From an uncultured Clostridia bacterium (GTDB lineage: Bacteria; Bacillota; Clostridia; TANB77; CAG-508), in contig CANQEX010000008.1 in assembly GCA_947596225.1 (NCBI GenBank), forward strand, positions 1 to 36,115: DNA of 36,115 nt, in the 5' to 3' direction. The notes beneath the pieces are model-generated. The model saw only the letters and a list, made by a program, of their open reading frames with translations. It had not been told where the DNA came from and did not search any database. Shown here in pieces: positions 3,676-23,931 of this stretch (position 1 is the first letter of the stretch; every line of letters begins with the position of its first letter). Both the position numbers and the translations under genes were made by a program.

Positions 3676-5034
3676 TTATTCCATTTTATCTAATTCTTCT
3701 TTTGGTAATATACTCAAAATTTCTAAAGCTAAATCAAGTGTTTGAATAATTGTTCTATTTTCAAATCTACCTTGATTTATAAAACGCTTTTCAAAAGCAT
3801 CACCAAATTCTAAATATTTTTTATCTGTTTCTGATAAATCAGCCTCTCCTAAAACTTTTGCTAAAGCTCTTACATCTTGAACTTTTGAATAAGATGAGAA
3901 AAGCTGGTCAGATATTTTTCTATGATCTTTTCTTGTATATTCTTCACCTATTCCATCTTTCATAAGTCTTGATAGTGAATCTAAAATATTTATTGGTGGT
4001 GTTATTCCTTTTTGGTATAACTCCCTACCTAAAACTATTTGTCCTTCTGTTATATAACCTGTTAAATCTGGTATAGGATGAGATATATCATCATTAGGCA
4101 TTGTAAGTATTGGTATTTGCGTTATTGAACCTTTTTTATCTTTTAACATTCCAGCTCTTTCATATATTGATGCAAGTTCACTATACAAATATCCGGGATA
4201 ACCTTTTCTACTAGGAATTTCCCCTTTTAATGTTGACACTTCTCTTAATGCTTCAGCATATGAAGTCATATCTGTTAAAATAACTAATACTTGCATATCT
4301 AATTCAAAGGCTAAATACTCTGCACATGTAAGAGCTACTTTTGGTGTTAAAATTCTTTCTATTGAGGGATCATTAGATAAATTTTGAAATGTTACAACTT
4401 TTGATAAAACACCATTTTCTTGAAAGCTTTTCTTAAAAAATTCAGCTGTTTCATATTCTGCTCCCATAAGTCCAAAAACAATTGCAAAATTAGTATCATC
4501 TTTTATATTAGCTTGTCTTATAATTTGTTCTGCTAAATCATTATGATTTATACCACTTCCAGAAAAAATTGGTAATTTTTGTCCTCTAATTAAAGTCATC
4601 AAACCATCAATAGCAGAAATTCCAGTTTCTATATAATTTCTAGGATATTTTCTAGAAATAGGATTCATTGCCAAACCATTTATATCTTTTTCTACATAAT
4701 CCTTAATTTCACCCAATCCATCTATTGGTTTTCCAATACCATTAAAAACTCTACCCAATACTTGATTAGATAGTTTAATTTGTAAAGGTTTTCCATTTAA
4801 TTCTGTTTTTACTCCATCAATGTTTATTCCATCTGTTCCTTCATAAACCTGTATTACTGTAACATCTTCATTTAATATAATTACATTTCCTATTCTTCTT
4901 TCACCAGATTTTAAAATAAGTTCGACTTGTTCATTATATGAAATACCATTAGGAGTTTTTAAATATACAAGTGGACCATTTATATGTTCTAAACCTAAAT
5001 ATTGTGTTTTCAACTTACTCTCCTTTCTGATCAT
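3676..5034 (-). CDS. V/A-type ATP synthase subunit B (likely start TTG at 5013)
   Basis: [24 protein letters not shown]...[30 protein letters not shown] lies 6 nt before the in-frame TTG at 5013 ([14 protein letters not shown]), so the TAATG-overlapping ATG at 5034 is less likely. Confidence 0.96.
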
Positions 5035-14108: not shown

Positions 14109-14648
14109 CTATTTTTTTACTTTTTTATTTAAGTCAGCAATTTGCGATGCAATATATTTACTACCATTCGAACCAATTGCCATAAATAAAGCTGTATCAC
14201 TAAATAATTCATCATCATTTGAATTTCTTAAGCTATATTTTTTTCCAATTGCAATAATAGTATTATATACTGAATCATATAAATCACTAAAAAAGTTTAA
14301 TGTTTCTTCTATAGAAGTTCTTTTTACTCTAATTTCAATTAAATCCTTAATATCTGAAATTGGTAATGCTTGTTTTAAACTGCAAATTATTATTAAATAT
14401 GCTATATGCTCTCTAGAATATTTTTTCTTTACTGGTGCTGGCATAATTCCTAATTTAACATAATTATTAATCATTGAATTTGTTATAATTTTTGTATCTT
14501 CATCAGTTTTATGAAAATATAAATATTTTTCCATTAAAGCAATAACTTGATCCATATATAAATCTATTTCAGGTAGTTCTTCCCAATATGGTAATTTATG
14601 TTTTACTATTTTAAAATAATCCTCAAATTTTGGTTCTTTTTTTTCCAC
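14109..14648 (-). CDS. DUF1836 domain-containing protein
   Basis: LPEIDLYMDQVIALMEKYL...ITNSMINNYVKLGIMPAPVKKKYSREHIAYLIIICSLKQALPISDIKDLI. Confidence 0.88.
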   Translation of the reverse strand: MEKKEPKFEDYFKIVKHKLPYWEELPEIDLYMDQVIALMEKYLYFHKTDEDTKIITNSMINNYVKLGIMPAPVKKKYSREHIAYLIIICSLKQALPISDIKDLIEIRVKRTSIEETLNFFSDLYDSVYNTIIAIGKKYSLRNSNDDELFSDTALFMAIGSNGSKYIASQIADLNKKVKK

Positions 14649-14718: not shown

Positions 14719-15204
14719 TTAAATATCTTCTTCATTTATGTGTTTTTTTAATTCATCTCTTGCTCTTTTAAGTCTTGTTCTTACATTTGCTTCACTGATA
14801 TGAAGAGTTTTAGCAATTTCAGAAGTTTTTAAATGATTTATATAATATAATTCAATTACTACTTTATATTTATCTTTTAGAGTTCGTGTTACATAATATA
14901 AGTTATCGCCTTCTTCCTCATAAACTATTAAATTCAAATCCTCATTTAATGGAATATTTTTTATTTTTCTTGAAGATTTAAGTTCATTACAACAAATATT
15001 AATAGTTACTCTAATTATTCAGCTTTTTTCATGAACTTCATCTTGAAAAACTTTTCCTAATTTTAATTCATTTATATATTTAATAAAAACATCTTGAACA
15101 ATATCTTCTGCATCATATTTATTTCTTAAATATCTCAATGCAATTTTATATATCATATTTCCATATTTACTAATAACATAATTCGAATTCAATTTATCTT
15201 CCAT
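14719..15204 (-). pseudogene. ECF-type sigma-70 factor interrupted by a single in-frame TGA (15019-15021)
   Basis: The two track ORFs (15019..15204 and 14719..14937) are in the same frame. Continuous translation: ...AEDIVQDVFIKYINELKLGKVFQDEVHEKS[TGA]IIRVTINICCNELKSSRKIKNIPLNEDLNLIVYEEEGDNLYYVTRTLKDKYKVVIELYYINHLKTSEIAKTLHISEANVRTRLKRARDELKKHINEEDI. Sigma region 2 and region 4 are both intact. Confidence 0.9.
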
Positions 15205-15347
15205 ATTTTTCTACAACTTATAATAAGTATTGCTCCTTCTTTATATTTTATTTATCTATTGACCTTATTATATTATTACAAAAAAAATTAAATAAATTTT
15301 GTATTCAAATTAACACAAATATAATACATTTTTTGACAAAAAACTAC

Positions 15348-15394
15348 AAATAGCTCAAATTTAAATCATATTAAAATCTAAATTTGAGCTATTT
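15348..15394 (-). terminator. Intrinsic terminator downstream of COG2426 gene
   Basis: AAATAGCTCAAATTTA / TAAATTTGAGCTATTT 16-bp perfect arms, T-rich tail on minus strand. Confidence 0.75.
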
Positions 15395-15403
15395 CCCGCT
15401 ATA

Positions 15404-15925
15404 TTAGTGAATTATATTTGCTAAAAAGCCAAATGATACAAGCATCATAATAATACTTGCTAAAAATATTCCAACAAGAACTGCTAAAAATGTTTTCTTT
15501 CTATCCATCTCTAAAACAGATGCAATTAAACTTCCTGTCCATGCACCTGTACCTGGTAATGGAATACCTACAAATAATACTACTCCTAAATATCCGAATT
15601 TTTCAATTTGACCTTTATGTTTTTCTACTTTTTCATCTAACCATTTAGCTATTTTATTAAAAAAAGTTATTTTACTTTTTCTCATTAAATTTAGTATTTT
15701 AGTAATTAACAATAAAATAAATGGTACTGGCAAAACATTTCCTATAATACTTATTATATAACTTGAAACTGGATTTAAACCAATTAAAGCTGCTGCAATT
15801 AACCCTCCTCTTAATTCAAGTATTGGCATTAAAGATATAACAAAAACTAATATTTCTTTTCCATAAGCAATAGAAGTTATACCACCAAAAGCTCCAACAA
15901 TTAATCCTACTAACTTTTCACTCAT
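15404..15925 (-). CDS. COG2426 / putative small multidrug export protein
   Basis: VFVISLMPILELRGGLIAAALIGLNPVSSYIISIIGNVLPVPFILLLI...VFVGIPLPGTGAWTGSLIAS. Confidence 0.92.
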   Translation of the reverse strand: MSEKLVGLIVGAFGGITSIAYGKEILVFVISLMPILELRGGLIAAALIGLNPVSSYIISIIGNVLPVPFILLLITKILNLMRKSKITFFNKIAKWLDEKVEKHKGQIEKFGYLGVVLFVGIPLPGTGAWTGSLIASVLEMDRKKTFLAVLVGIFLASIIMMLVSFGFLANIIH

Positions 15926-20076: not shown

Positions 20077-23000
20077 TTATAATACATATTTCTTAATTAA
20101 AATAATTCCTGTAGCCATTATTACAAGTACTGTAGTTGTTAAAGTTATATATGTTGGTACTGTACCTGTTGATATTGTTACTACTACTGGAGCATTATCT
20201 ATATCATCTTCATCAAGAACTCTGTTATTTGGAGTCGAATCAATGTCTGGTGTATCACTATCATTTCTATCATCACTAATTTCTGCTACATTTATTTTTG
20301 TACCAAAGTTGTTTTCTCCATTAATCCATTTTAATACTATTTGAACAGATGCTGATTGACCTGGCTCTAATCTAGTATTAGATAATGCATTTGTTGTAAC
20401 TACATTAGAAGAAACTTGTGTCCATTGTTTATTTTCTTCAGGTAAAAATTCTAATCCTTCTGGGATATAATCAGTAATTTCATCTGCATATCCAGCAATT
20501 TCACCTTCATTTGTAATAGTTATATTATAAACAAATTTTATAATAGTTGAATCTATTCTTTTTCTATGAACTTCAACTTTTTGTAATCCATCTGTACTAG
20601 AAACAGATATTTCTCTAGTTGCTCCATTTTCTGTTACTATTATTTTAACTAAATCTTTTTGTAAATTTAAATCAAAGTATTTAACATATACATTTTCATC
20701 ATCTATATCATCTTCATTTTCTTTATCATTTCCTGGAGTTGAATCAACATCTTCAACTGGGTTTCCATTTTCATCTTCATCATCTGTTATTTCTGCTATA
20801 TTTTTTATAATTCTTTCTTGATTATCAACTTCACTTTCAACAACTTTAAAAGCTATTTGAAGATCTCTATAGTCTGGATTTGCATTTTCAGGATCATTAC
20901 TTATTTCTGCATTTGCATCAAACGCTTTAAGTAAATTATCTTCATTTCTTGCTTCAGATTTTTCTTTTGATAAATAATCTGTTTTTACTTTTACAGCTTG
21001 TTTTAAATCTGTTGTTTCATTTCCATTACTATCATATAATTTCCAATCATATTTTTTATTTATTTCATTATCTAATAAAAATTCTAATCCTTTTGGTAAA
21101 TTATCTGATACTTCTTTAGCATATCCTGAAATATTACCTTCATTATAAACTCTTATTGTATATGTTATTATATTTCCATTTTCAACTTTTAAAGGATCCT
21201 TTGCACCAGCTTTTGCAGAAAATTGAATATTTCCTTCAGAATCAACTACAACTGATGGTTCTCTATCAGTAATATCTTGATCTTCAACTTTTGAAATAAA
21301 TTTTTTCAAACTTAAATCAAATTCTTTTGGTTCAGTAGTTAAATCTTCATAATCATCATCATCTTGATCTTGATTATCTCCTGGATATTTATCTGGGTCT
21401 ACTGAGTCTGGCTCAGAATCTATATCTGTTATATCTTTTTTATTTTCATCAGAATCTTTTGTTACTTCTGCAATATTTCTAAAATTACTATTAGTAATAG
21501 TATCTGCTAATACTATACATGTTATTTGAATATCTTTATAATCTAATTCTTCTCCTGTTTTCTTGTCAAAGCCTTTAAGTAAATTCTTGTTGTCTACTTC
21601 TGATGACTTTAATTTTGTTGAAGTAATCTTTGTTGGTCCTACTACTACATCTACTTCATCTAAATTTTTTATACCATTAAAATCATCTACTGATAAGTTA
21701 TTTTTTCCACCCTCTATTGTACTTAGTTTTACAGTTTCTGCATCTTCTGATATTAACCAGTAATTATCCAAATTTGTAGTATAATCTACTAAAAATCCTA
21801 AACCTTGTGGTATGTAATCAGCTACTTCCTCAGCATATCCATCTAGTTCACCTTCGTTATAAACTCTTATTGTATATGTTACTATATCACCTTTTTCTAC
21901 AACAACTGGTGTTTTTCTAGTTGTATATGTTGCATCTGTTCCTCCATTCTTTAAGTTTGTTACATCTACTTTTGGTTCTCTGCTAGGATTTGGAGCTGTT
22001 TTATTTACTCTTGTTATAAATTTCTTTAAACTTAAATCAAATGGCTTTCCTTTAACTTCTACTTTTTCAAAGTCATCATCATCTTCTCTACCTTTATAGT
22101 AATAATCTTCATCTGATAAGTCTTTTGAATTATTAGTATTATCTCCCTTATAATCTGATGCGTCATAATCATTTTCAACATAATCATTATTTCCTGGAAT
22201 AGAATCTCTATCATCTACTCCATCTTCTTTTATTTCAGCTACATTAGTTAATACAGAAGATACTAAAGCATCATCTGCTATTTTACATTCTATTTGTACA
22301 TAATCACTATGTAATGTTTCATCATTTTCTTTATCAAATTTTTGTATTAGATGATCTGATAAATAGTTACTTAAATAAACATTTCTTTTTTCACCTTCTG
22401 TAACTAACTGCCATCCATATGTTCTATTTATTTCACTTTCTTCATCATATTCTAAACCTTTTGGTAAGGCATCAACAATTACTGTTCCTTCTGCATCTAC
22501 ATCAGATTCATTATATACTCTTATTTCATATACTACTTTATCTCCTATTGATACCTTTACTGGATCTTTAGCATGTTTATATTCTGCAGTTTCACTTGTT
22601 CCTTCTTTTAATCCTGTAACATCAACTACTGGTTGTCTGTTTACAGTTTCATTATTAACTTTTACTATATATTTTCTTAAAGCTAAATCTGCTTCAGGTC
22701 TATCTTCTACTGGATATCCTTTATCTACTTTATGAGGTGTTTTTTCTCTAGTTAGTAATGTTACTGGTTGATATACGTCACCTTCTTCACCACCTGTTTT
22801 AATCCAAAGTGATGCTTCTGTTTCATAACTTGCATATGAAATTTCTAAAGTTACATTTGTTATAGTTTTATTTGATTCAGGTAGGTATATATAATATTGT
22901 TGATCAAAAATTTCATCTATATTTTTATTTGTAAAATCTTCTTCACCTTCAATATATATTTTATAATCTTGTTTAGATATTTCACTATTGTTTTGATCTA

Positions 23001-23931
23001 ATAATTTTATAGAATACTCTGTAGGAGTAGCTGTTCCTTTATTAACTTTAAATGGACCTACTACATAATATCCTTCTCTTTCAATAGGATTTCCTTGTAC
23101 TGTTTCTCCCATTGTTGGATAAGTAACATTATTATTAACTCCCGCTTTGGCTGAATTTACTAAATATTTAAATAAGTAATCTGCCATTTGTTGTCTTTCT
23201 TCATACCCTAAATCATTATAAGATTGATCTTGATTTGGTTTTTCTAAAGTTGTTAGTCTTACTGCTGGTAATTGTTCTACATTATATTTACTTGTATCAT
23301 TATTTGTAAAATACCAAATTGCATATTGTTGAACAACATCTATATCATCATCTGTTAAAAATGCTTTTACAGTTTCTAAATCTCCATCATAACCAGCAAA
23401 GGCTTTTGTTAAATAATCATCTTTTTGTTCTGGTGATTGTTTACTTAAATACATATTATCAACTAACCACATTAAAGCTCTATAGTTTGAAGTCCATTTG
23501 CTTTCATCTTGCGAATATTCAGCACTTAAATGTAATGCTTTTACATTTGCATTTGTAGGATCTTTTAAATCAGCAACTTTTGAGTATTGTAAACTATCTT
23601 GCCCTACATTAGTTACACCAGGAAATTGTTTTTCAGCATTTAAACAATAAAACATATTTGAATATTCATAATCATCTTTTACAATTATTTTGTAAACTTT
23701 TGTTTCTCCTACTGTATAACCATGTGGCTTGGTATCATAAAATTGTTCTTGATCTTCAGTCAATGTTCCACTAGACTCTTCTCCACCTTGGTGCATACGT
23801 TGAATTTGTAATTCTGCTGTAGTATCATCTTGAGTTAATGCCACAGCAAGCACTGTTGATGTGTAAGGCATTATTAATACTAATATACACATCAATATAA
23901 GAATAATTTTTGAAACTTTTTTTCCAATCAT
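20077..23931 (-). CDS. Thioester-domain (TED/TQXA-like) surface adhesin with repeated isopeptide-type stalk domains
   Basis: Signal peptide; FYCLNAEKQFPG (candidate thioester Cys) and VVQQYAIWYFTN (candidate thioester Gln, TQxAIWxFT-like); repeats beginning FDLSLKKFI and ending NIAEI; C-terminal TISTG + hydrophobic helix + KKYVL. Confidence 0.87.
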   Translation of the reverse strand: MIGKKVSKIILILMCILVLIMPYTSTVLAVALTQDDTTAELQIQRMHQGGEESSGTLTEDQEQFYDTKPHGYTVGETKVYKIIVKDDYEYSNMFYCLNAEKQFPGVTNVGQDSLQYSKVADLKDPTNANVKALHLSAEYSQDESKWTSNYRALMWLVDNMYLSKQSPEQKDDYLTKAFAGYDGDLETVKAFLTDDDIDVVQQYAIWYFTNNDTSKYNVEQLPAVRLTTLEKPNQDQSYNDLGYEERQQMADYLFKYLVNSAKAGVNNNVTYPTMGETVQGNPIEREGYYVVGPFKVNKGTATPTEYSIKLLDQNNSEISKQDYKIYIEGEEDFTNKNIDEIFDQQYYIYLPESNKTITNVTLEISYASYETEASLWIKTGGEEGDVYQPVTLLTREKTPHKVDKGYPVEDRPEADLALRKYIVKVNNETVNRQPVVDVTGLKEGTSETAEYKHAKDPVKVSIGDKVVYEIRVYNESDVDAEGTVIVDALPKGLEYDEESEINRTYGWQLVTEGEKRNVYLSNYLSDHLIQKFDKENDETLHSDYVQIECKIADDALVSSVLTNVAEIKEDGVDDRDSIPGNNDYVENDYDASDYKGDNTNNSKDLSDEDYYYKGREDDDDFEKVEVKGKPFDLSLKKFITRVNKTAPNPSREPKVDVTNLKNGGTDATYTTRKTPVVVEKGDIVTYTIRVYNEGELDGYAEEVADYIPQGLGFLVDYTTNLDNYWLISEDAETVKLSTIEGGKNNLSVDDFNGIKNLDEVDVVVGPTKITSTKLKSSEVDNKNLLKGFDKKTGEELDYKDIQITCIVLADTITNSNFRNIAEVTKDSDENKKDITDIDSEPDSVDPDKYPGDNQDQDDDDYEDLTTEPKEFDLSLKKFISKVEDQDITDREPSVVVDSEGNIQFSAKAGAKDPLKVENGNIITYTIRVYNEGNISGYAKEVSDNLPKGLEFLLDNEINKKYDWKLYDSNGNETTDLKQAVKVKTDYLSKEKSEARNEDNLLKAFDANAEISNDPENANPDYRDLQIAFKVVESEVDNQERIIKNIAEITDDEDENGNPVEDVDSTPGNDKENEDDIDDENVYVKYFDLNLQKDLVKIIVTENGATREISVSSTDGLQKVEVHRKRIDSTIIKFVYNITITNEGEIAGYADEITDYIPEGLEFLPEENKQWTQVSSNVVTTNALSNTRLEPGQSASVQIVLKWINGENNFGTKINVAEISDDRNDSDTPDIDSTPNNRVLDEDDIDNAPVVVTISTGTVPTYITLTTTVLVIMATGIILIKKYVL

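Follow-up and report, generated by a model that had tools for sequence, protein, structure and literature searches.

A conserved in-frame UGA in a relocated ECF sigma factor gene is probably read as tryptophan

The window analysed here, a stretch of 36,115 nucleotides belonging to a 76%-complete genome (G000), harbors on its minus strand an ECF sigma factor gene whose frame is interrupted by a single TGA (Table 1), raising the question of whether the gene is defunct, divided into two, or translated through its internal stop codon. As originally predicted from the sequence, the frame 15204..14719 is open except for the TGA at 15021-15019, around which it reads DEVHEKS*IIRVTINICCNELKS, and this TGA occupies a column in which the other aligned homologues of the genus carry Trp (TGG), being the sole lesion of the gene, with no frameshift or other decay. 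The same prediction held sigma region 2 to be intact upstream of the stop, which is not the case, since residue 62 interrupts the Pfam Sigma70_r2 domain (residues 11 to 79) and lies within the third predicted helix (residues 56 to 76) of the region 2 domain in an AlphaFold model of moderate confidence (mean pLDDT 72). Termination at the TGA leaves a product without the last part of region 2 and without region 4 altogether. When the TGA is read as Trp, the resulting protein matches both Sigma70_r2 (E=6.5e-11, 42.3 bits, cut-off 24) and Sigma70_r4_2 (E=1e-12, 47.9 bits, cut-off 25.7), regions 2 and 4 thereby being present together as is expected of an ECF (group 4) sigma factor, and it scores above the cut-off for the NCBIfam sigma70-ECF superfamily model TIGR02937.

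Table 1. Features of the sigma factor locus and their positions in the window
Feature	Position	Strand	Remark
ECF sigma factor gene, 161 codons plus TAA stop, single in-frame TGA	14719..15204	(-)	Frame otherwise open
In-frame TGA at conserved Trp, residue 62	15019..15021	(-)	Same codon is TGA in G027:C8 and G035:C43
Sigma region 2 (Pfam Sigma70_r2, residues 11-79), cut by the TGA	14968..15174	(-)	
Sigma region 4 helix-turn-helix (Pfam Sigma70_r4_2, residues 107-152)	14749..14886	(-)	
Fourteen codons HEKS[TGA]IIRVTINIC	14992..15033	(-)	Identical amino acids in three orthologues, with only synonymous third-position changes
Upstream syntenic neighbour, Sm_multidrug_ex family membrane protein	15404..15925	(-)	Pfam match and synteny
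Downstream syntenic neighbour, DUF1836 protein, no known anti-sigma family	14109..14648	(-)	Pfam match and synteny
Conserved upstream block TGTGTTAATTTGAATACAAA, about 100 nt 5' of the start, in all three orthologues	15298..15317	(-)	Candidate promoter (putative function)
Terminator-like stem-loop with T run, between upstream gene and sigma gene	15348..15394	(-)	

A search of 53 genomes of the genus recovered two further sigma homologues interrupted by a single TGA at the same codon, in G027 and G035 (two other species; 58-59% amino acid identity), and a homologue in G048 whose TGA lies near the N terminus at a different codon. On either side of the three codon 62 TGA copies lie an Sm_multidrug_ex gene and a DUF1836 gene shared by the three species (84-91% identical), inside longer conserved runs, and, judged by this synteny on both sides, the copies are orthologous; a protein tree is compatible with one origin of the TGA copies, but because its support is poor (31/67), the assignment of orthology is based on synteny. 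All remaining aligned homologues of the genus, including second copies in G027 and G035, have TGG in the codon 62 column. The comparison of relatives suggested with the original prediction thus returned TGA in orthologues and TGG in paralogues, and did not expose a private mutation. Because two further species have TGA at the identical codon, its occurrence is more than chance, and the in-frame TGA is real; nor is it the very recent nonsense mutation that was offered as one of two options, since the three species that carry it show a neighbour-gene dS of about 0.56-0.86. No further TGA copy at codon 62 was found by a profile search of 390 family genomes, an order-wide pattern search of 388 genomes (a set without G027 and G035) returned TGA at this codon only in G000, and named relatives in the genome collection yielded only distant homologues of the sigma factor.

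The gene carrying the TGA arose by duplication and relocation of an ECF sigma gene. Several other species of the genus have the Sm_multidrug_ex and DUF1836 genes near one another and yielded no sigma gene in the interval, so that insertion of the copy probably dates from the ancestry of G000, G027, and G035. The TGG copy resides at a conserved locus and is followed there by an overlapping putative anti-sigma gene, whose product in G027 and G036 weakly resembles DUF4179, a domain often present in anti-sigma factors. In G035 this home locus (L197:3867-8810), near rpsB, comprises the sigma gene, the overlapping putative anti-sigma gene, a divergent gene whose G035 product has a Spo0A_C DNA-binding domain, and a gene for a GHKL histidine kinase, and matching loci occur across the genus (G027, G036, G013, G030, G032, G008, and G023); the home locus was not found via rpsB in the 76%-complete G000 assembly.

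An ancestral nonsense mutation could have killed such a duplicate, its intactness then being only apparent. A decaying pseudogene of this kind would be consistent with the lack of a partner gene beside the duplicate, with the faster evolution of the sigma gene relative to its neighbours, and with the occurrence of other private in-frame stops in the sampled genomes, but it agrees poorly with the sequence on the far side of the TGA. There, orthologue pairs give a dN/dS of 0.27-0.39 at a dS of 0.8-0.9, against 0.29 for the intact TGG pair, and the three lineages have neither a frameshift nor a second stop, their in-frame length differences all being multiples of three, so that no further lesions are accumulating downstream. 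In neutral simulations at the observed divergence the downstream half remained free of stops in only 0.1-0.2% of runs, and the observed downstream amino acid identity exceeded that of every simulation. The G027 and G035 orthologues are about as conserved (75% identical upstream of the TGA and 62% downstream) as the intact TGG pair (61% and 62%). These patterns indicate that purifying selection acts 3' of the TGA, and we consider a pseudogene unlikely. Retention of the TGA is by itself no evidence of selection on the stop, because 70% of the comparable K/E/Q third positions of neighbouring genes have likewise kept A throughout the three species.

Selection on the downstream part would also be expected if the TGA closed an N-terminal protein and region 4 were made as a separate protein from a downstream start. 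Two-subunit sigma factors are known, as in SigO/RsoA of B. subtilis, where sigma regions are likewise separated by a stop; beyond this precedent, no result obtained here favours such an arrangement. In contrast to SigO/RsoA, the stop lies inside region 2, within a predicted helix rather than between domains, and there is no conserved second start: the first in-frame ATG/GTG/TTG codons, 28, 30, and 13 codons 3' of the TGA in the three orthologues, are non-homologous and have no clear Shine-Dalgarno sequence. The codons ahead of these starts are moreover under amino acid constraint. A split sigma factor is accordingly given very little weight; initiation at the ATA directly 3' of the TGA would be possible. 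Because the constrained codons precede any ATG/GTG/TTG, and because those starts are non-homologous, the constraint immediately 3' of the TGA is best explained by ribosomes passing it.

If ribosomes do pass the TGA, UGA might be reassigned or ambiguous (stop and Trp) throughout the genome, or a tRNA-Trp(UCA) might lie in unassembled sequence. A 25% GC genome with low use of TGA stops and a tRNA-Trp with a 4-bp anticodon stem would suit such ambiguity, as would the missing portion of the G000 genome (about 24%). Sampled stretches of three incomplete MAGs (G000, G027, and G035; 76-87% complete), including 436 kb of G000, nevertheless point the other way. At conserved Trp codons, defined by alignment to W in another genome, 472 TGG (246+110+116) were counted versus 3 TGA, all three at sigma codon 62, and a readthrough scan of the sampled ORFs likewise found TGA aligned with W at this codon only. 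TGA terminates 17/369 ORFs (4.6%) in G000, 7/111 in G027, and 8/133 in G035, or about 5% of ORFs; these are genuine stops, and extensions beyond them are mostly short. Of the two checks put forward with the original prediction, one showed RF2 to be present in G000 and the other found no tRNA with a UCA anticodon among the typed tRNAs of the three genomes, in which a few edge-truncated tRNAs were left untyped. A UGA=Trp code (NCBI table 4) was rejected on the codon counts, the presence of RF2, and the ORFs ending in TGA; outside the sigma gene, UGA appears to be an ordinary stop, and genome-wide ambiguity is regarded as highly improbable. UGA is also the codon for selenocysteine, but this or another special insertion is effectively refuted by the absence of selA from eight genomes of the genus, the lack of a conserved hairpin after the UGA, and the presence of Trp, not Cys, in homologues. 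Assembly or sequencing error, conceivable insofar as the compared genomes appear to be many-contig MAGs, is effectively refuted by the recurrence of the base in three species whose genomes were assembled separately and whose flanking sequences have diverged.

The readthrough scan also turned up a few private in-frame stops, covering TAA, TAG, and TGA, each in a single genome; because such stops exist, one in a single genome is unremarkable, and it is the sharing among three species that counts. One of them, a TAG at position 3839 (minus strand) of L067 in G000, stands where the G027 homologue (86% identical over 518 residues) has Trp and, being seen in G000 only, is taken as a private nonsense mutation or assembly error. 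Private in-frame TAA codons in L071 (1674) and L078 (13153) of G000, in genes with long homologues in G006, mark possible pseudogenes or assembly errors. The RF2 gene of G000 (L009; G000:C33) has an uninterrupted frame and lacks the frameshift signal, with its in-frame TGA, by which many bacterial prfB genes regulate themselves.

The sole tRNA-Trp found in G000 has a CCA anticodon, with U27-C43 unpaired atop the anticodon stem (leaving a 4-bp stem) and A24 pairing with U11; U27-C43 recurs in every one of the 31 copies read within the genus and in 26 read from further genera of the same family. A 4-bp-stem tRNA-Trp(CCA) is reported to raise UGA readthrough about 2.5-fold when overexpressed in E. 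coli, G24A likewise to favour UGA readthrough, and bacteria that have only a 4-bp-stem tRNA-Trp(CCA) to tend toward fewer UGA stops (Fakih et al., PMC13092985). The present lineage resembles that system in having only the CCA species, an unpinned top pair of the anticodon stem, and rare UGA stops; it differs in that U27-C43 was not among the variants assayed there and in that its own code is standard. It falls outside the strict "Blastocrithidia-like" set (a 4-bp stem without A9C or G24A) because position 24 is A. By analogy with the assayed tRNAs, this tRNA-Trp appears permissive for the reading of UGA but singles out no gene: because the 4-bp stem is family-wide, it cannot explain why only the sigma gene has the UGA. 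When windows around the codon were folded for three copies with TGA and three with TGG, no stimulatory RNA structure specific to the former emerged. Wild-type B. subtilis reads catA86-TGA at 6% (cited in PMC7918605) and is, similarly, a Bacillota host with RF2 in which UGA is read as Trp at a few percent, although its readthrough was measured on mutant reporter genes, whereas the UGA described here is natural and conserved.

Gene-specific readthrough of the UGA as Trp is, in our judgment, the likeliest reading of the locus and probably the correct one; it corresponds to the second option of the original prediction, that UGA read as Trp could throttle the sigma factor, which the comparisons favour as the better of the two. 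We propose that a working, relocated ECF sigma duplicate would be transcribed into an mRNA whose coding region has UGA at the position of a conserved Trp codon, at which most ribosomes would terminate via RF2, releasing a 61-residue fragment incapable of sigma function, while a minority would decode it as Trp with the usual tRNA-Trp(CCA) and go on to the regular stop codon, producing full-length sigma factor. The amount of this product would be low and possibly regulated, the UGA acting as a brake, either constant or varying with conditions, on a sigma factor deprived of its neighbouring anti-sigma gene. That readthrough occurs, that Trp is the inserted residue, and that the brake is useful are points which we infer from sequence comparison.

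Bacterial in-frame stops conserved under purifying selection, for which readthrough was proposed to lower expression, have been described by Belinky et al. 2021 (PMC7918605), and the sigma TGA belongs with them: orthologues of different species (G000, G027, and G035) share the stop position, and dN/dS after it is below 1. The TGA cases of that study average a dS of 0.004 and a dN/dS of 0.66, compared with about 0.8-0.9 and about 0.3 here, and the sigma TGA is much older on account of this difference in dS; unlike those cases, moreover, the stop is found in a sigma factor of which there is an intact paralogue as well. The carrier here is a sigma factor and the divergence exceeds the averages of PMC7918605; no sigma factor with an in-frame UGA was found in a search of the open-access literature. 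Many bacterial in-frame stops are annotated as pseudogenes. The gene described here encodes a regulator in which the internal UGA has persisted while species diverged and selection has held both before and after it; TGG was the codon at all other conserved Trp positions checked, and the tRNA-Trp of the lineage shows features associated with the decoding of UGA. The locus may thus provide a clean and testable natural case of bacterial UGA readthrough for gene control.

No cognate anti-sigma gene adjoins the TGA copy, the next gene being that for the DUF1836 protein; an adjacent anti-sigma gene is usual, not universal, in ECF (group 4), and its absence is not decisive for membership. It is an attractive possibility, if rather doubtful, that a translational UGA brake replaced an anti-sigma protein brake once the gene had been duplicated away from its anti-sigma gene. 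Were this so, the level of full-length sigma factor would track termination efficiency, Trp-tRNA charging, or stress, and the exchange of brakes would have taken place in a lineage with a tRNA-Trp of the kind associated with UGA decoding. As the terminator-like stem-loop separates it from the upstream gene, the sigma gene is probably transcribed on its own. Matches to the conserved upstream block, sought in order to outline a regulon, were too few to define one. An orphan-looking TGG copy in G022 (L200:5545-6030), situated at a different place, is preceded by a block, TGTAAGTATTTGAATACAACTTT, which resembles that of the TGA copies. Elsewhere in the window, positions 20077-23931 encode a putative surface protein of 1284 residues with thioester (TED) and DUF11 domains, the counterpart of which in G027 is read as two separate ORFs.
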